Of a stretch of DNA of 64,000 nt, positions 19,606 through 64,000 are shown piece by piece. Under the pieces are notes generated by a model. That model worked only from the letters and a program-made list of their open reading frames with translations, did no database searches and was not told the origin of the DNA. The stretch is from Zingiber officinale (lineage: Eukaryota; Streptophyta; Magnoliopsida; Zingiberales; Zingiberaceae). The first letter of the stretch is position 1; each line of letters starts with the position of its first letter. The stretch lies in assembly GCF_018446385.1 (NCBI RefSeq), contig NC_056002.1, forward strand, positions 30,614,636 to 30,678,635, written 5' to 3'. Made by a program: the position numbers and the translations under genes.

Positions 19606-20004
19606 ATGGGCCCTGGAGGACCTGGCGGACCTGGCGGGCCTGGAGGGCCTCCTGGACCTGGGTGGGCTCCCCTCCCAGGGGGCCCTTTCCCTGGCTGGGG
19701 CCCAGCACCGCCAGGGGGCCCATTCTGGGGGCCAGGTTTTGGTGGCTTCCTACCCTCGTGGTTAGTCCTCCCAAGTAAACAGCTCTGATAACCGGTTCAG
19801 ACACCAATACCGAATCGGTTCTGATGGATCAAAAATAAAAAAACCCGGCTTTTTTATGTTTTAAAAAAATGTAATTTATTTCTGATTTATTTTCTGTTTG
19901 GTTGCAGTTTTTACTTCCTGTGCTGCTGCTGCTTACTTCAGGAATGCTGTGGGCCCTTGTTCGGGACGGGCCCAAGGCCGTATGGTCCTCCTCCTCCTTT
20001 TTGA
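19606..20004 (+). CDS. Small Gly/Pro-rich protein with CYSTM-like cysteine cluster
   Basis: Two exons, 19606-19760 and 19908-20004, joined through donor TG|GTTAGT and acceptor TTGCAG|T, encode 83 residues. Residues 1-51 are Gly/Pro/Trp/Phe-rich (MGPGGPGGPGG..., WAPLPGGPF). The splice junction creates Cys52. Then follow the hydrophobic FYFLCCCCLLQECC core (residues 53-66) and a Gly/Pro tail ending PPPPF. The CCCCLLxxCC core after a Gly/Pro-rich head is the layout of CYSTM (cysteine-rich transmembrane module) proteins: short membrane-associated plant proteins linked to stress responses. A TATA box and a CT-rich leader precede the ATG. Unspliced, the frame would stop eight codons into the intron and lose all cysteines. 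The stop is 385 bp before the RecA start codon, same strand. Function is inferred from the module only. Confidence 0.72.
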
Positions 20005-39841: not shown

Positions 39842-40799
39842 TACCAACTTGTAAGACCCCACCCTCCTCACTACTAGACTTGTGAGGGCGGAGCGCTACT
39901 GGACTACTAACTTTACTTAACTATCCTTGTTCACATATTGATAGTAATTCCTAAAACTCTCGGAGAACTCAAAACATACAATTAACTAGCAGCGAAAGAC
40001 TAAATGACTCATCTAATACATTCTTAATAAATAGCAATCTGAATAAATTCTTATGCTAGGTCCCAAGGCTTCTATAGTCCAGGCATCACACATCCATCCA
40101 CACCTCCTTGTCGCCTTCCTTTGCTATAACTTTTCCTTTCCTTTATCTGCAGTAAGAGGAAATGCAACTATAAGCAAAATTACTTAGTAAGCGCTATCTA
40201 ACTCACAAAACTCGAATATGCATGTGAATAAGATAAATCTAAAACTGATTTGTGAAGTTTTGAAAACTATTTTCATAATAGATAAAAATAATAATAATCA
40301 AACTGCTGATGGGCCCGACAACTGTACTTGCTATGCGCACATCCCTAACTAGACCCGAGGTAGCTAGTCCTGAATCTAGTAGGGTTACTAGGTTATCTAA
40401 ACCTAGGGACGACTATGGGAGCCCAACCTAAGGACAACTGAGAGTCCAGCACAGTGCCACTGATAAAAGTAAAATACTGATTTATAAGCTGATTTATCTT
40501 AATTACTTCTTCTTTAAATGCCTTGACATTTTAACGAGCACCTTGTGTGCCAAAATTCCTAAAGTCTTGACTTTGGGATCTACTTAAGGCCTTGGCCTTT
40601 TTCTTTCTTTTCTTTATCTTTCTTATACTTGTTAATACCTCTAATAAAAGAATGTTTCTTTAAAAACTGAAATGTTTAAACAAATTCTAACTTTGAAATG
40701 CATAAACAAAAATCTGCATACTATGCTAATCAAAATTCTGCATACTATACTAATCAAGATTCTGCATTCTATGCTACACTATTTCTGCATACTATGCAA

Positions 40800-41525
40800 A
40801 CATAAATTCTGCACTATAATATTTAACCAAACTGCACTATAATCTTTTTCTTTAAAAACTGCACTATAAGTTCCACAAAAAATCTACACTACAAGTTCCA
40901 CAAAAAATCTGCACTATAAATTTCACCAAAAATCTACACTACAAGTTCCACAAAAAATCTGCACTATAAACTTTAAAGAAATCTGCACCATAAGCTCTTA
41001 AAGAAATCTGCACTACAAGCTCTAAAGAAATCTGCTCTAAAAAAATCTGCATTTTAAGCTCTAAGAAATCTGCACTACAAGCTTAATTAAAATTTGCACT
41101 ATGAGCTTACATAAAAATCTGCATTATAAGCTTAATTAAAATCTGCACTATAGGCTTAATTAAAATCTGCACTATAAGCTTAATTAAAAATCTGCACTAT
41201 AAGCTTAATTAAAATCTGCACTATAGACTTAATTAAAATTTGCACTATAAGCTTAATTAAAATCTGCACTATAAGCTTAATTAAAATCTGCACTATAAGC
41301 TTACATAAAAATCTGCATTATAAGCTTAATTAAAATCTGCACTATAAGCCTACATAAAAATCTGCACTATAAGCTTAATTAAAATCTGCACTATAGACTT
41401 AATTAAAAATCTGCACTACAAGCTTAATTAAAATCTGCACTATAAGCCTACATAAAAATCTGCACTATAAGCTTAATTAAAATCTGCACTATAGGCTTAA
41501 TTAAAAATCTGCACTATAAGCGCTT
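40800..41525. repeat. Tandem array, AATCTGCACTATAAGCTTAA unit
   Basis: About 25 units of 20-30 bp (consensus AATCTGCACTATAAGCTTAA, variants with AGCTCTAAAGA or CCTACATAAA spacers), carried by the inverted LTR. The same array occurs in the opposite orientation at 43,440-44,000. Confidence 0.92.
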
Positions 41526-41819
41526 CTCATGCTTCGAATTCAAGAAGAACAAAGGTCCGAAACTACTCCTACTGCAGGTGAGAAGCACTTACCTTGCTTC
41601 TTGGACTCACAACCGAACAAGAAGGGCTTCTAGGACCTTGGCCGGCCGCCGGAGACGATGCCCTAACTCCCTTTTGTTTTTTGCCCCAGCTCCGCCGTCA
41701 CACGCAGAAGAGAAGGAGAGAATGGTTTAGGTCCGGGAATAAAACCCTCTCCTAACTTATCCCTTTTATAACCTAGTATTTCTGTTAACTCCTTAAATAA
41801 ATTTTTATTTTTTTTCTAA

Positions 41820-42495
41820 ACAGAACCGTTGCTTGGATTCTTGGTTAGCCAAATCTTTGATCGGGTCAGAGGTCACGGGTTCGATTCCTCAACCGAACCC
41901 TTTTTCTCCTATTTATTTCCTATTTATTTCCTATTTATTAATTACTGCTTAAATAAATTTCGTTCCTTATTTTAATCAGCATCGCTCGTTGGAACACTTG
42001 GTCAGCTGTGCTTTTGCTAATCAGAGGTTGCGGGTTCGATTCCTCAGCCGAACCCTTTTTCTCCTATTTATTTCCTATTTATTAACTACTGCTTAAATAA
42101 ATTTATTCCTTCTTTTATTCAGTATTGCTCGCTGGAACACTTGGTCAGCCATGCTTTCTCTAAATTAGAGGTTGCGAGTTCGATTCCTCAGCCATCCCTT
42201 TTATTCCCATTTATTTTCCGTTTCCTATTAACTATTACTTAAATAAATTTCATTACCCTTTTTAATCAGCAACCTTCGTTGGGACACTTGGTCAACCGTG
42301 AATTGCTTAAGGTTTGGCTCGTGGGTTTAAATCTTGGCTGCAATCTTTTTCTTCCTATTATTTCCTGTTATCAACTTCTACTACTTAAATACATTTCATG
42401 CTTCTTTTTATCAGCAACGACTGCTTGCACACTTGGTCAGCCGGACTCGCTTAAATCTTTATTCGGCCGGAGGTCTCGGGTTCGAATCTCAGCTT
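41820..42495 (+). repeat. Five tandem tRNA-like (B-box) modules inside an LTR
   Basis: Units of about 150 bp each contain CACTTGGTCAGCCG-like sequence, then AGAGGTTGCGGGTTCGATTC ending at a CAGCCGAACCC-like stretch. B-box cores lie near 41,877, 42,031, 42,176, 42,324 (worn) and 42,477. The box B plus the GGTTGCGGG stem resembles the 3' half of a tRNA. The spacers are T-rich (TTTTTCTCCTATTTATTTCC). They are not complete tRNA genes, because a proper acceptor stem cannot be formed. Confidence 0.75.
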
Positions 42496-42634
42496 GGACA
42501 TTTTCTTGTCGAAACTTCTTTTGTTTAGTAAAAATACCAAACGACCTCCAAAAATCTCTAAAATTTTTTTAAAGCATTTCTAAATATTTTTAAGCACTAT
42601 TAGGACTCGAAATGAAGAAATTTGGGTCGTTACA

Positions 42635-43111
42635 ATCTCCCATACCTTATAAAACGTTCGTCCTCGAACTTAGAATAATTCTAGATTTCTCTGTCTCATA
42701 TTGTCTTCATGCTCCCAAGTAGCTTCCTCGTGCTTCTGGTTTTGTCAGATGATTTTCACTAGTGGTACTTCTTTGTTCCTTAGTCTCTTAACTTTCCTAT
42801 CCACTATCACCCATAACTTATTTGTCCTTTTTGTTCTCCTGTACTCGGTCCTCATTACAAGCGGTACGAGGATGTCCTCTTCTTGATATTTAGTTATGTA
42901 GAAAGAAACTAAGCAGAATTCTTAACTTTATAAGCACTTCTAAACATCTCCCTATTCTGTACATATAATCTAATACTTCTAAGGATTTCTCTTTACTGTA
43001 AAGAATAAAGAAAGCATACTAAAATTTTTTTTTTTAATACTTTCTTACTTGAAGGCGGCAAGGTTGGTGCTGATGTGTAATGCTGGAGAATAGGAACTGC
43101 TCTGATACCAA
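42635..43111 (-). mobile_element. Collapsed interior of the inverted gypsy element
   Basis: Minus strand from 43,111: primer site TTGGTATCAGAGC (43,111-43,099), a leader and the gag start ATCAAGAAGAGGACATCCTC (about 42,880; the gag start codon itself has become ATA). The sequence then passes without pol to the 3' end of the interior (CACTAGTGAAAATCATC, CTTGGGAGCATGAAGAC) and a polypurine-like tract before the LTR at 42,634. About 3.5 kb of gag-pol is missing, giving a deletion derivative. Confidence 0.82.
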
Positions 43112-43113
43112 CT

Positions 43114-43440
43114 TGTAACTCCCCACCCTCCTCACTACTGGACTGTGAGGGCGGGGTGCTACTGGTCTACTAACTTATCTTAACTAACATTGCACACATG
43201 TTGATAGTAATTCCTAAAACTCTCGGAGAACTCAAAACATACAATTAACTAGCAGCGGAAGACTAAATGGCTCATCTAATACATTCTTAATAAATGACAA
43301 TCTTAATAAATTCTTATGCTAGGTCCCAAGGCTTCTATAGTCCAGGCATCACACATCCATCCGCACCTCCTTGTCGCCTTCCTTTGCTATAACTTTTCCT
43401 TTCCTTTATCTGCAGTAAGAGGAAATGCAACTATAAGCAA
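43114..43440 (-). mobile_element. LTR end fragment, minus orientation
   Basis: It starts TGTAACTCCCCACCCTCC beside the primer site and matches 39,850-40,180. At about 43,440 it changes abruptly to plus-orientation LTR sequence at AAGCTTATAGTGCAG. Confidence 0.8.
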
Positions 43441-45128
43441 AGCTTATAGTGCAGATTTTTATGTAGGCTTATAGTGCAGATTTTAATTAAGCTTATAGTG
43501 CATATTTTAATTAAGCTTATAGTGCAGACTTTTAATTAAGCTTATAGTGTAGATTTTAATGCAGATTTTTATGTAAGCTTATAGTGCAGATTTTAATTAA
43601 GCTTGTAGTGTAGATTTTAATTAAGCTTACAGTGCAGATTTTTATGTAAGCTTATAGTGCAGATTTTAATTAAGCTTGTAGTGCAGATTTCTTAGAGCTT
43701 AAAATGCAGATTTCTTTAGAGCAGATTTCTTTAGAGCTTATAGTGTAGATTTCTTAGAGCTTAAAATACAGATTCCTTTAGAGCAGATTTCTTTAGAGCT
43801 TGTAGTGCAGATTTCTTAAGAGCTTATGGTGCAGATTTCTTTAAAGTTTATAGTGCAGATTTTTGGTGGAACTTGTAGTGCAGATTTTTGGTGAAATTTA
43901 TAGTGCAGATTTTTTGTGAAACTTGTAGTACAGATTTTTGGTGGAACTTATAGTGCAATTTTTAAAGAAAAAGATTATAATGCAGAATTTATGTTTACAT
44001 AGTATGCAGAAATAGTGTAGCATAGAATGCAGAATCTTGATTAGTATAGTATGCAGAATTTTGATTAACATAGTATGCAGATTTTTGTTTATGCATTTCA
44101 AAGTTAGAATTTGTTTAAACATTTCAGTTTTTAAAGAAGCATTCTTTTATTAGAGGTATTAATAAGTATAAGAAAGATAAAGAAAAGAAAGAAAAAGGCC
44201 AAGGCCTTAAGTAGAACCCAAAGTCAAGATTTTAGGGATTTTGGCACACAAGGCGCTCGTTAAAATGCCAAGGCATTTAAAGAAGAAGTAATTAAGATAA
44301 ATCAGCTTATGAATTAGTATTTTACTTTTATCAGTGGCACTGTGCTGGACTCTTAGTTGTCCTTGGGTTGGGCTCCCATAGTCGTCCCTAGGTTTAGATA
44401 ACCTAGTAAACTTTACTAGATTCGGGACTAGCTACCTCGGGTCTAGTTAGGGATACGCGCATAGCAAGTACAGTTGCCGGGCCCATCAGCAGCATGATTA
44501 TTATTTTTATCTATTATGTAAATAGTTTTCAAAACTTCACAAATCAGTTACGTGAATACAGTTCAGATTCAGCATTTGCCTAGCATCAGTTTAGCTCAGC
44601 TTATGTATCAGTTTAGTTAAACTTATTATTCTGAAGTATAAAAGTATAAGTTTTGAACAAGTGAAATAAGTTTTACATGTTTAGCATTTCAGCATGTCTT
44701 GTTTCTTTTGCCATTAGATGAGTATGTGTAGTATTTTCTTTAAAGCATTCAGTTTTAGATTTCTTTTATTCACATGCATATTCGAGTTTTGTGAGTTAGA
44801 TAGCGCTTACTAAGTAATTTTGCTTATAGTTGCATTTCTTCTTACTGTAGATAAAGGAAAGGAAAAGTTATAGCAAAGGAAGGCGACAAGGAGGTGCGGA
44901 TGGATGTGTGATGCCTGGACTATAGAAGCCTTGGGATTTAGCATAAGAATTTATTAACAAAGAGTTGAGTAGAATGTATTAGATGAGTCATTTAGTCTTC
45001 CGCTGCTAGTTAATTGTATGTTTTGAGTTCTCTGAGAGTTTTAGGAATTATTATCAACATGTGAACAAGGATAGTTAAGATAAGTTAGTAGTCTAGTAGC
45101 GCCCCGCCCTCACAGACCAGTAGTGAGG
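43441..45128 (+). mobile_element. Plus-orientation LTR segment, flipped relative to its left neighbour
   Basis: Contains the inverted 24-bp array (43,441-44,000), the AGGCCAAGGCCTTAAGTAG block and the GGAAAGGAAAAGTTATAGC block. It ends at GACCAGTAGTGAGGAG (45,128), where the sequence flips again. Confidence 0.8.
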
Positions 45129-60587: not shown

Positions 60588-61915
60588 ATTGGTATCAGAG
60601 CTAGGGATTTGCCTCTGTGTATTTGGTATTAGTTTAATTATGCACATGTCATACATAATTTAAGCAGGATAATAGTAGGATGTGCTAACTTTGTGGATGC
60701 AGGATCCAACTATTATGACTTATAGTTATTATGTGTGTGATTGGACCCTTGGACATGTCAAGGGCATTTTATTGTGTGTGCATGATTGTATTATAAAATA
60801 CAGCAGGAGCTGTATTTAGTTTTATTAGGATTTTATTTTTTGATCTAGATACATGTACATTCCTTCGAGGAATATAGGATCGAAAAATGTAAAAATTCTA
60901 TATATGTCGCGAATCGAATCTTGCAAGGCGTGGAACTTTTTGAGGACCAGAGGCGCAGCGGAACAAGGAGCAAGATGGATGCGACAACTAGACCCGGTGG
61001 CAGTGGCCAAAGATGGCAGCAGCTAGGGTTGGTGACACACGGAGGACAACAATAGATAAAAGCCATAATAGTTGAAAATTAGATTTTCTATTTATTGCTT
61101 TTATATTGTACTGTGTGTGCATGTTAGTATACATAGACTAGTATAGTTAAAAATTCCTCGTTTATAAATAACTAAGTGGGAGAGGGATTTTTAAATAAAT
61201 CCCATGGTCTCCATTACTGGTTTGTAAGTGATGCAAACAAGCTTGCGCGTTGGCTCTGAGTGCCTTCCTCCATAACGGATGAGCTTGTTTGTGGATCACT
61301 AGAACAGACTTCTAATTTTGGATGACTATAGGAAGTTAATTAAGAGCGTGTGATCTTCCCCAACGGAAGGGGCATAATCTTATTAATGGACTTAGTGTCA
61401 AGTAATGGTATACACTTAGGCATGTCTAATAGTATCCTCCCCATCGGAGTCACTGCTATTATTTGTGTGATCGAAGAAAACCAACTATTAATTTGTCAAA
61501 TAAAAAGGTTGACAAGATAATAAAATTAAAAACCCCTCTTACAAATGTTTGATTTTGTATACGTCCACACTAACGTGGCATACAAAATTCACGGTATTTG
61601 AGGTAATTTTATTTGTCATAAAGATTTATTGACAAGATAATTAATGGGTAAAACCCTCCTCTTATAAATGTTTAAATTTTGTATAAGTCCACACTAACGT
61701 GGCATGCAAAATTCACGATGTTTGAGGTGTTGGTGAATTTAAATAATATTGTTTGAGGAATCAATGTTATTTTAAATTCAAAGAGTTTTGACCAAATATT
61801 TGATCAAAGACAGATCAACTATTAATTTTATTCGTCATAAAGTAAAGTTGACGAGATAATAAAATTAATGAATAAAATCTCCTCAAACAAAATTAATGAA
61901 TAAAATCTCCTCTAA
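60588..61915 (+). mobile_element. Primer site and untranslated leader of the second copia element
   Basis: The primer-binding site TTGGTATCAGAGC lies at 60,589-60,601. The 1.3-kb leader that follows has no gag frame. From 61,490 to 61,735 a unit of about 130-165 bp is repeated: GACAAGATAATAAAATTAA, then TCCACACTAACGTGGCATAC and ACAAAATTCACG. The CACACTAACGTGGCA core contains GCCACGTTAGTG. The leader is cut at about 61,915 by the next element. Confidence 0.75.
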
Positions 61916-62807
61916 CTTTGAATAAAATCGATCCAGCGCTTATCGCTCGAAGCAGCCGCGTCCCAATCGATCCACTGATCGATTGGGACCTCTGGATCGA
62001 TCCACGGATCGATCCAGAAGCTCTCTGTTCGCTGGGACAGGTCTGGATCGATCCAGAGCCTGGATCGATCCACTGATCGATCCAGCACTTGATTTTTGTC
62101 CAAAACCAAGTCCCAAACCTCCCAAACCAACATCCGGTCAACCTTGACCTGTTGGTATGTCATGCCTAGCATCTAGTCACTCCCTTGACCTGCTAGGACT
62201 CCCTTACCAAGTGTCCGGTCAATCCCTTTGACCCACTTGAACTTTTCTCTGTGCCAAGTATCCGGTCAATCCCTTTGACCTACTTGGACTTTTCTTTCAT
62301 GCCAAGTATCCAGTCAATCCTTTGACCTACTTGGACTTCCCAGCACCAGATGTCCGATCATCCTTGATCCATCTAGATTTTCCCTTGCCTGGCTTCACTC
62401 ACCAGGGCTTTCACCTAGCTTCACTCACTAGGGTTTTTCATCTGCCTAGCTTCACTCACTAGGACTTTCACCTGGCTTCACTCACCAGGATTTCCATCTG
62501 CCTAGCTTCACTCACTAGGACTTTCACCTGGCTTCACTCACCAGGATTTCCATCTGCCTAGCTTCACTCACTAGGACTTCCTTCTGCTTGGCTTCACTCA
62601 CCAGGACTTTTCTTCTGCCTGGCTTCACTCACCAGGACTTTCATTTTGCCTAACATCCCAGTTAGGACTTCCCAGTCAAGTATCCAGTCAACCTTGACCT
62701 ACTTGACTCTTCTTCAATCAATATCTTATTGTCAAACATCTAAACCCAAACCAAGACTCAGCTTGGTTACCCAGGTCAACCTTGACCTGAGGGATATTGC
62801 ACCAACA
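61916..62807 (-). mobile_element. LTR of a third, minus-strand element, built of hairpins
   Basis: Read on the minus strand it starts TGTTGGTGCAATATCCC at 62,807, next to the purine tract AAAAAGGGGGAGAT (62,821-62,808), which marks a 3' LTR. It runs to about 61,916, where it is truncated or ends. Almost its whole length is inverted-repeat units (separate entry). The three overlapping minus frames at 61,893-62,172 are repeat sequence, not genes. Confidence 0.7.
61960..62790. repeat. Array of about 20 consecutive hairpins with covarying arms
   Basis: Group 1 (61,960-62,085): GTCCCAATCGATC/GATCGATTGGGAC with loop CACT, TCTGGATCGATCC/GGATCGATCCAGA, palindrome TCTGGATCGATCCAGA, and CTGGATCGATC/GATCGATCCAG with loop CACT. 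Group 2 (62,126-62,375): about 31-35-nt units with outer arms ACCAACA/TGTTGGT, CCTAGCA/TGCTAGG, CAAGTG/CACTTG, CCAAGTA/TACTTGG (twice), CAGATG/CATCTA, and inner arms GGTCAA/TTGACC. Group 3 (62,387-62,640): nine units of about 30 bp with loop CTTCACTCAC and arms CCTGG/CCAGG or CCTAG/CTAGG. Group 4 (62,649-62,790): CCTAAC/GTTAGG, AGTCAAGTA/TACTTGACT and CAGGTCAA/TTGACCTG. Confidence 0.9.
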
Positions 62808-64000
62808 ATCTCCCCCTTTTTGATGTTTGACAATACCACAATAACACTTACAATCCCATATGTAGGTTAGGCTAATCCCATAGCCTCCTTCTTCATGCCA
62901 CTAGGTAATGAAAGCATAAATTAAGCTCTTCATTCTCCCCCTAAGAGGGCAAACTCCCTCTAGGTAATGAAAGCCTAACTTACTCCCTTTCATGAGTCCT
63001 TTCATTCTCCCCCTATGACCTTCCCATAGGTAATGAAGGACTAAGCTTAACCATACATTCTCCCCCTATTGGCACACATCAACCCATCGTTGGACACACA
63101 TCAACCTATGCTCCAATTCTGGACACACTTCAACAAATCCATTTGTTGAAGACTCTCCCCCTGAAGAGTTGCTCATCGTTGTTCACAACATCACTCGTTG
63201 TGATCAACACGATAATGAAGGTCCCATACCCTTCATTTATCCTTAACTTCTCCCTCAATGTAGACAACTACCCAACCTTGAGCATTATCTACCACTTGAG
63301 TGTCCACTTGAAATAATGAGGATATCCACTCCCCATTTCTCCCCATTTCAAGTTTAAATGCTCAACCTTGAGCAAGTTCACAACAGAAGGTTAACCACCT
63401 TCCAAGGTTTATGAAAAATAATTTTCATGTCTTTAAAGAGTCCCTCCCCTAAAGACATGGTGGTAACTTCTGTCATTGCACCAACAATGACTTGGAATCC
63501 CTCTACCATTAGGAAACCCAAATTTAGAAGTTTTGAGGTTCAAATATTCAAAATTTGAAACAACCTCAACCTAAACTTCTACTTAGTCTTCGTTAACCAA
63601 TCCATCCTTGTTTTCAACATGAAAACACCCTTTGTATGTATACAAATGTATTTAAGGGGTTTGGAATGGTTACCTAGACTCAAAGAGGTTCAAAGATGCT
63701 GAAATCAGGCCTTCCCAGCCAAAATCAGCAACTTGGATCGATTGAGTTGGGTTCCAATCGATTGAACCTTTCTCAATCGATCCACCGATTGATTCAGACC
63801 GGATCGATCGGTGATCGATCCAGCGAGCTTTCGCGGGAATTGCCGTTTGAATCGATCCATGGATCGATTCATGGAACTCAATCGATCCATGGATCGATCG
63901 AAGCTCGATAGTTGCTGAAATTCCATTTCATCAACTTGAAACCCCTAGAAAATTCTACAAAATCCAAAATTATGAAATTTTGTGTAGACATTATTTAGGC
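62808..64000 (-). mobile_element. Non-coding 3' interior of the third element
   Basis: No domain of gag or pol was seen. Purine tracts like that of the LTR border recur (plus strand CATTCTCCCCCTA at about 62,931, 63,005, 63,056 and CTCTCCCCCT at 63,153), with a tandem repeat of about 70 bp containing TAGGTAATGAAAG. At 63,720-63,905 is a second cluster of ATCGATC palindromes. The frames here have no recognised product. The element continues beyond the window. Confidence 0.5.

Follow-up and report, generated by a model that had tools for sequence, protein, structure and literature searches.

The first ~0.68 kb of a Sirevirus-type LTR in Zingiber officinale (about LTR positions 19-682) forms an array of about twenty small inverted-repeat hairpins. 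The two arms of a hairpin tend to vary in concert, an indication that it is the pairing itself that is kept. We think it probable, though far from assured, that this is a cis-regulatory palindrome array lying in the presumed U3, in which the pairing of the outer arms is selected in transposing lineages and the RNA of the 3' LTR is the most likely folded strand.

The array and the element that carries it

The window, by which we mean the whole 64,000-nucleotide stretch analysed (NC_056002.1, positions 30,614,636 to 30,678,635), holds on its minus strand the start of a Ty1/copia 3' LTR of Sirevirus type, with the LTR start at 62807. An initial annotation, made from the sequence alone, had taken the array region for an LTR, as is borne out by the TG at 62807, the PPT and BLAST, and the hairpin units that it named are all present where it had placed them (Table 1). 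In the BLAST comparison among 30 loci, the window LTR matches other copies only to ~61927, that is, LTR position ~880 of ~1480; the window copy has therefore lost the rest of its LTR or had it interrupted. Intact LTRs measure ~1461-1593 from their start to the PBS (17 loci).

Table 1. Coordinates in the window of the LTR and its hairpins; motifs are given in the element sense.
Feature	Position	Strand	Description
3' LTR, Sirevirus-type Ty1/copia	61927..62807	-	BLAST among 30 loci, LTR start and PPT coordinates; TG at 62807
Terminal PPT AGGGGGAG, then AT/TG	62810..62817	-	octamer positions
Inverted repeat around the PPT/3' LTR junction	62727..62835	.	arms 62727-62744 and 62818-62835, 18 nt, 94% complementary
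Six long hairpin units	62126..62377	-	7-bp outer arms; inner stem GGTCAA/TTGACC or a relative; 3-nt bulge on the 3' side
Long units, one by one	62126-62156, 62165-62197, 62207-62241, 62254-62287, 62302-62334, 62346-62377	-	
Nine short hairpin units	62388..62636	-	CCT(G/A)G-TGAGTGAAG-C(C/T)AGG, one with a changed arm; partly a 56-bp dimer repeat
Hairpin CCTAAC/GTTAGG	62649..62666	-	
Hairpin AGTCAAGTA/TACTTGACT	62674..62708	-	inner GGTCAA/TTGACT
Two hairpins adjoining the LTR start, AACCAAG/CTTGGTT and CAGGTCA/TGACCTG	62749..62789 (62749-62768, 62772-62789)	-	pair states in 96-97 copies

We class the element as Sirevirus-type on five non-coding genus marks, each found in the window copy or its sisters, taking the criteria from PMC2829016. 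The PPT is repeated: five octamers occur in the window, the terminal one and those at 62935, 63007, 63060 and 63155, and nine 3' LTR loci carry 3 to 6 PPT copies in the linker. The terminal mark, PPT followed by ATTG, is present in 9 of the 30 loci, and the inverted repeat around the PPT/3' LTR junction is found in the window copy itself. The Sirevirus 5' LTR junction, CA/A(T or G)TGG-TATCAGAGC, is seen in sister copies, the window holding no 5' LTR of the element: the PBS junction ACA/AGTGGTATCAGAGC occurs in 17 of the 30 loci, and of the remaining 13 loci, 9 are identified as 3' LTRs by the PPT. Finally, all 7 of the LTR ends compared, again from sister copies since the window copy is without its LTR 3' end, have the poly-C integrase signal nearby (six at -31 to -36, one at -11). 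Genome-wide, the PPT/LTR junction occurs 7,904 times with at most one mismatch, against 0 for the control, in 3.09 Gb. The SIRE lineage is described as prevalent in Amomum, another member of the Zingiberaceae (PMC11066291).

A simple scan for a mid-LTR TATA box gave no motif match with at most two mismatches in 7 LTRs, so that we infer the assignment of the array to U3; the box is published as absent in 2 of 21 Sirevirus elements (PMC2829016). Nor did one element, L011 to L005, whose LTR starts lie 5.7 kb apart, show an RT or integrase domain in those of its stop-free stretches that were scanned. In that element a copia gag domain was matched at E 2.8e-3 and a zinc knuckle at E 0.0046, and in copy L002 copia gag at E 3e-4, all of them weak matches below Pfam cut-offs. 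Across L011, L111, L112 and L005 (G000:C5:17321094-17327543) there are two matching LTRs, and the domains found are gag-like only; this Sirevirus-type element may be non-autonomous. At gathering thresholds, Rfam gave 0 matches in the window.

The array holds more pairing than expected by chance. Stems of at least 6 bp number 8 and cover 110 bases; Markov sequences average 2.4 such stems and 30 bases covered, and 100 shuffles reached at most 80 bases. As RNA, the array has a folding z of -4.4 for the element strand and -7.7 for its opposite, none of 20 shuffles doing as well for either. Two long units folded singly reach -13.5 to -14.6 kcal/mol on either strand, and two short units -6.2 and -8.2 kcal/mol on the element strand, -3.5 and -5.5 on the opposite strand. 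The inner stems TTGACC/GGTCAA are what we take to be inverted W-box-like words; hexamers of the form TTGAC[CT]/[AG]GTCAA occur 14 times in the array of L005, where the Markov model gives 1.26 on average and at most 4 in 300 trials.

Several details of the units needed adjustment. The outermost pair of unit 62207 is broken in the window copy, just as the shorter arm initially given for it implied. The short units do share a constant loop, but it is the 9-nt CTTCACTCA, the final C originally included in it belonging to the right arm. Eight of the nine short units are CCTGG/CCAGG or CCTAG/CTAGG, as described; the remaining one, at 62587, is CTTGG/CCAGG, with one arm changed. Among 776 units with intact arms the loop is exact in 701, and the short unit with R/Y at pair 4 has 222,737 exact matches genome-wide, whereas the same pattern read backwards has 0.

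Other features lie around the array. Dense GATCGATCCA-type palindromes occur beyond it in the LTR (61960-62090) and again in the linker (63730-63900), which also holds, at 63476-63486, a second LTR-start word (TTGCACCAACA) ~680 bp upstream of the LTR in the element sense. A PBS-like word, TTGGTATCAGAGC, is at 60589-60601 on the + strand, and a second copia element may thus lie in opposite orientation beside the broken LTR. Elsewhere in the genome, PPT/LTR junctions are spaced ~5.6-5.7 kb apart on the same strand (G000:C1:89353428 and 89359132; 9531833 and 9537395), as in tandem elements sharing an LTR. Far from the LTR, at 40600-44194, the window contains a large inverted repeat, its best arms being 97% complementary over 225 nt. 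Within these arms a 24-bp repeat forms arrays that face in opposite directions (AAAATCTGCACTATAAGCTTAATT and its complement). Between these arms is a 144-bp repeat of ~2.9 copies (41866-42294) with a tRNA T-arm-like word, GGTTCGATTCC, although ARAGORN called no tRNA there; it called a tRNA-Ser (gga) at 19608-19686 on the + strand (bacterial code).

Linked changes in the arms

The copies compared come from the 30 best LTR matches and the first 80 of 100 listed PPT/LTR junctions on contig C1 (of the 7,904 in all), which is not a random sample. Three of these 110 loci, without a recognisable LTR start, were left out; 7 of the other 107, without the last long unit, were excluded from the long-unit set, leaving 100 copies, and one more from the tree, leaving 99. 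Identity filters retained 63, 68, 95, 97, 96 and 99 of 100 instances for the six long units, c4 to c8, and 49 to 97 of 107 for the head units. The tree was built from the LTR tail (616 columns, 99 copies, median identity 0.81, lowest 0.35), and recombination between copies and poorly aligned tails would blur the assignment of changes to its branches.

Fifteen types of perfect outer arm were found, six of which, unrelated single or double finds, we left aside. Six are common: CCAAGTA (142), CCAAGTG (77), ACCAACA (75), TCAAGTA (69), CCAGATG (63) and CCTAGCA (49). Changes of one base pair at a time join 7 of the types into a network, including the single instances CCAGGTG, CCGGATG and ACAAGTG, and CCAGGTG sits between CCAAGTG and CCAGATG. 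ACCAACA and CCTAGCA stay apart from the network and may have a separate origin.

In the pooled long units the paired fraction is 0.716, against a maximum of 0.541 in 500 shuffles, relatedness not being removed from this figure. In the six slots, scored in 63 to 99 of the 100 copies, one-sided changes number 440, two-sided Watson-Crick changes 39 and two-sided non-pairing changes 12, all of them counts of rows and not of events. On the tail tree, both partners changed on the same branch 27 times at the 73 true pairs, 23 of these ending in a Watson-Crick pair, where 2.6 were expected. Sliding the partners by 1-3 positions (39-64 pairs) gave 1-9 doubles, 0-6 of them Watson-Crick, against 1.0-1.4 expected. 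These controls themselves exceed independence, which shows that changes gather in clusters on branches; 27 versus 2.6 therefore overstates the true excess. The proposal that the arms change together thus stands against a control that takes the tree into account, but it needs tempering: changes on a single side are far commoner in the long units (262 branch changes versus 27 doubles).

Some doubles are replacements of one unit by another. Row by row, this can be seen for c6 in copies L076 and L101, for c8 in L075 and perhaps for c5b. In L098 and L100, c4 has new matched forms instead, and further doubles are partly decayed. It had also been proposed that one arm is rewritten from the other. In the six long units, however, we found no arm with several bases rewritten that unit replacement would leave unexplained: all three instances with at least two compensated outer pairs carry another unit's arm or one within a single base of it.

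The short units tell a different story from the one originally read in them, which was that tandem duplication does not predict their arms. Among 1002 short units (loop with at most one mismatch), the arms are CCTAG/CTAGG in 397 and CCTGG/CCAGG in 340, whereas the two mixed forms count just 20 and 10. Genome-wide, 210,108 of the 222,737 exact units are matched, a figure obtained by subtracting the 7,846 and 4,783 mixed ones. The arm type goes with the flanking spacers: where the same 9+9 nt flanks surround five or more units, which gives 26 contexts, the minority type makes up 20 of 376 matched units (7 more are mixed), and with 6+6 nt flanks 73 of 535, plus 14 mixed. The G-C/A-T switch therefore reflects mostly two duplicated unit lineages, and the window itself includes a 56-bp dimer repeat. 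With the arm type inherited along with its 9-nt flanks, the argument against duplication fails for the nine short units: an old double change was multiplied by duplication, often as the 56-bp dimer, and most of the pattern in the window copy spread in this way. Arm switching within a single array can hence mimic repeated covariation while being due to the duplication of units. Even so, in 906 short units, pair 4 left out, doubles at partner positions number 11 (7 Watson-Crick) against 2.0 expected, and at non-partner positions 11 against 6.0, so that a modest excess of partner doubles remains after allowing for uneven decay. Genome-wide, doubles at pair 5 number 737 against ~238 expected by hand estimate, a comparison on which we do not lean.

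Constraint and competing explanations

Changes per site on internal and terminal branches were 0.49 and 1.48 in the outer arms, 0.63 and 1.97 in the inner stems, 1.02 and 2.21 in loop and bulge, and 2.04 and 3.16 in the spacers. From totals rebuilt from these rounded rates, the internal-to-terminal ratio differs between stem and spacer (p = 1e-4) and not significantly between stem and loop (p = 0.11). The pattern fits selection in still-moving lineages followed by decay after insertion, with the caveat that stems are lower on terminal branches too and that spacers are harder to align. As a control for post-insertion change, two pairs of LTRs were compared, with 9 differences in 1419 columns and 23 in 1421, too few to use. 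One-armed changes as frequent as those at unpaired positions had been named as the finding that would speak against the folding idea. One-armed changes are indeed many (42 of 91 instances of c7 are imperfect), but stems change less than spacers.

Wobble pairs were used to ask whether selection acts on RNA or on DNA. In long units c4-c8, G-U exceeds A-C by 17:2 among common variants (at least 4% of copies) and stands at 27:32 among rare ones (Fisher p = 0.001). When the closing pair of the inner stem is set aside, since TTGACT there would still count as a W-box, the common variants give 11:1 by hand count and the rare counts are unchanged (p = 0.004). The head units alone give 13:7 for common and 34:36 for rare variants, and both sets together p = 0.0016. 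Measured against an assumed baseline of 0.6, G-U accounts for 30 of 39 common variants (p = 0.02) and 24 of 29 internal changes (p = 0.008), while the internal ratio of 24:5 does not differ significantly from the terminal 89:39 (p = 0.18). At the first pair of unit a1, among 96 copies, 30 have G-T and 22 G-C, most others have A-T, and none has A-C. The background is mildly skewed, internal changes of the tail occurring at 1.52 per base for C>T and 1.02 for G>A. In the short units the G-U/A-C counts, outermost pair first, are 13/16, 12/20, 4/7, 25/14 and 26/5, the pairs near the loop favouring G-U and the outer three A-C. Genome-wide they are 7,846/4,783 at pair 4 and 13,704/3,868 at pair 5, and the A-C form of pair 1, the one form counted there, reaches 10,343. 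In our sample the right arm of the short units mutates more at most positions (39, 12, 28, 28 versus 21, 23, 13, 11). Because of this higher mutation and of the disagreement of the short units, the wobble argument is a lead and not a result: the excess of G-U in common long-unit variants hints at selection on the sense RNA, a preference that the short units do not repeat. The excess of W-box-like words in the inner stems, on the other hand, favours a DNA role for the cores. Both roles may hold.

Under the reading that we prefer, the array would serve the element as a cis-regulatory region made of dyads bound by proteins, presumably of WRKY type for the cores. The need for a folded strand, most likely the 3' LTR RNA, would keep the outer arms complementary. 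Units would multiply and be replaced by unequal exchange, spreading arm types along the array; in lineages still transposing, compensation would mostly involve single pairs, and dead copies would then decay through one-sided changes. A stricter version, in which the palindromes are selected as folded sense-strand RNA and not as sequence motifs, the arms drifting through G-U steps and the array being a structural RNA domain of the transcript, we regard as a tentative possibility. Its counterpart is that the palindromes are kept only as DNA dyads for protein binding, such as WRKY dimers on inverted W-boxes, with RNA folding as a by-product. The excess of TTGAC[CT]/[AG]GTCAA, the lack of a general G-U preference in short units, the WRKY binding to W-boxes of a copia LTR reported for EVADE (PMC12786077) and the case for regulatory dyads made in PMC2829016 all speak for it. 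But the outer arms vary in their letters between units and yet remain complementary, more than a fixed binding site would account for, and common long-unit variants favour G-U over A-C (17:2, versus 27:32 for rare ones); we find it doubtful, if still a serious candidate.

Alternatively, tandem duplication and exchange of a few ancient hairpins could have produced the array with no current selection on pairing, the doubles being unit replacements. The tie between short-unit arm type and flanks, the 56-bp dimer, the replacements at c6, c8 and possibly c5b, and the many one-sided changes are in its favour. It nonetheless seems an unlikely account of the whole, since the matched arms CCAGGTG and CCGGATG are not those of standard units (one perfect instance each), since a1, a single unit at a unique place, varies between A-T, G-T and G-C at its first pair, and since partner doubles in short units exceed non-partner doubles relative to expectation (11 versus 2.0, as against 11 versus 6.0). 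Very improbable, to our mind, is a purely mutational rewriting in which the template switches during replication or reverse transcription, so that one arm is copied from the other and stems stay perfect without selection. Doubles do exceed independence, and the mechanism is published for RNA genes (PMC8794818). However, no instance in the six long units has two or more newly compensated outer pairs unlike the arms of other units, many mismatches stay uncorrected, and the 3-nt bulge, which arm copying across it would remove, is kept in the aligned rows shown and in the window.

Comparison with known palindromic LTRs

The question on which this array bears is why elements keep LTR palindromes at all. 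Palindromic repeated motifs (RMs) of Sirevirus LTRs were published in 2010 (PMC2829016), and they resemble the array in their high copy number, dyad symmetry, place in the upper LTR and context of Sirevirus PPT, PBS and integrase signal; the RMs of Osr10, Osr8 and Vitis even share its GGTC..GACC core. In the published cases each element has one largely conserved palindrome, whereas here the outer arms differ from unit to unit and there is a second class of units with a 9-nt loop. The published motifs lie at LTR positions 200-400, while our first hairpin is at position 19. They have a CGG-CCG core in 12 of 13 cases, unlike the inner GGTCAA..TTGACC(GG) found here, which has no CGG on its 5' side. 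As 1 of the 13 RMs is without that core and 8 of 21 Sirevirus elements are without RMs, the difference does not exclude a Sirevirus.

In maize, the Sireviruses Ji, Opie and Giepum have palindrome clusters with small-RNA peaks (Bousios 2016, as described in PMC10760457 and PMC5311732), and Sirevirus LTR palindromes are reported as small-RNA hot spots in the latter two papers. Clustered LTR palindromes with strong predicted RNA structure are common to those elements and ours, but the motif published for them, CACCGGACNNNGTCCGGTG, is unlike the array. The template-switch model for RNA hairpins (PMC8794818) predicts linked arm changes, yet multi-base rewriting is not what we see here. ATCOPIA93/EVADE likewise has W-box motifs in a copia LTR (PMC12786077); in our array they form inverted pairs inside hairpins, as putative binding sites. 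Searches on Sirevirus palindromes led to the 2010 description and later small-RNA work; among the titles and abstract openings returned for W-boxes with palindromic LTRs, and for template switching with hairpins and compensation, none described covarying arms in such an array. Palindromes in Sirevirus LTRs are thus already known, and what sets this version apart is that the arms vary between units and enclose inverted W-box-like cores. With 7,904 junctions and 222,737 exact short units, such an array lets pairing and sequence be separated by counting, as near-identical palindromes do not.
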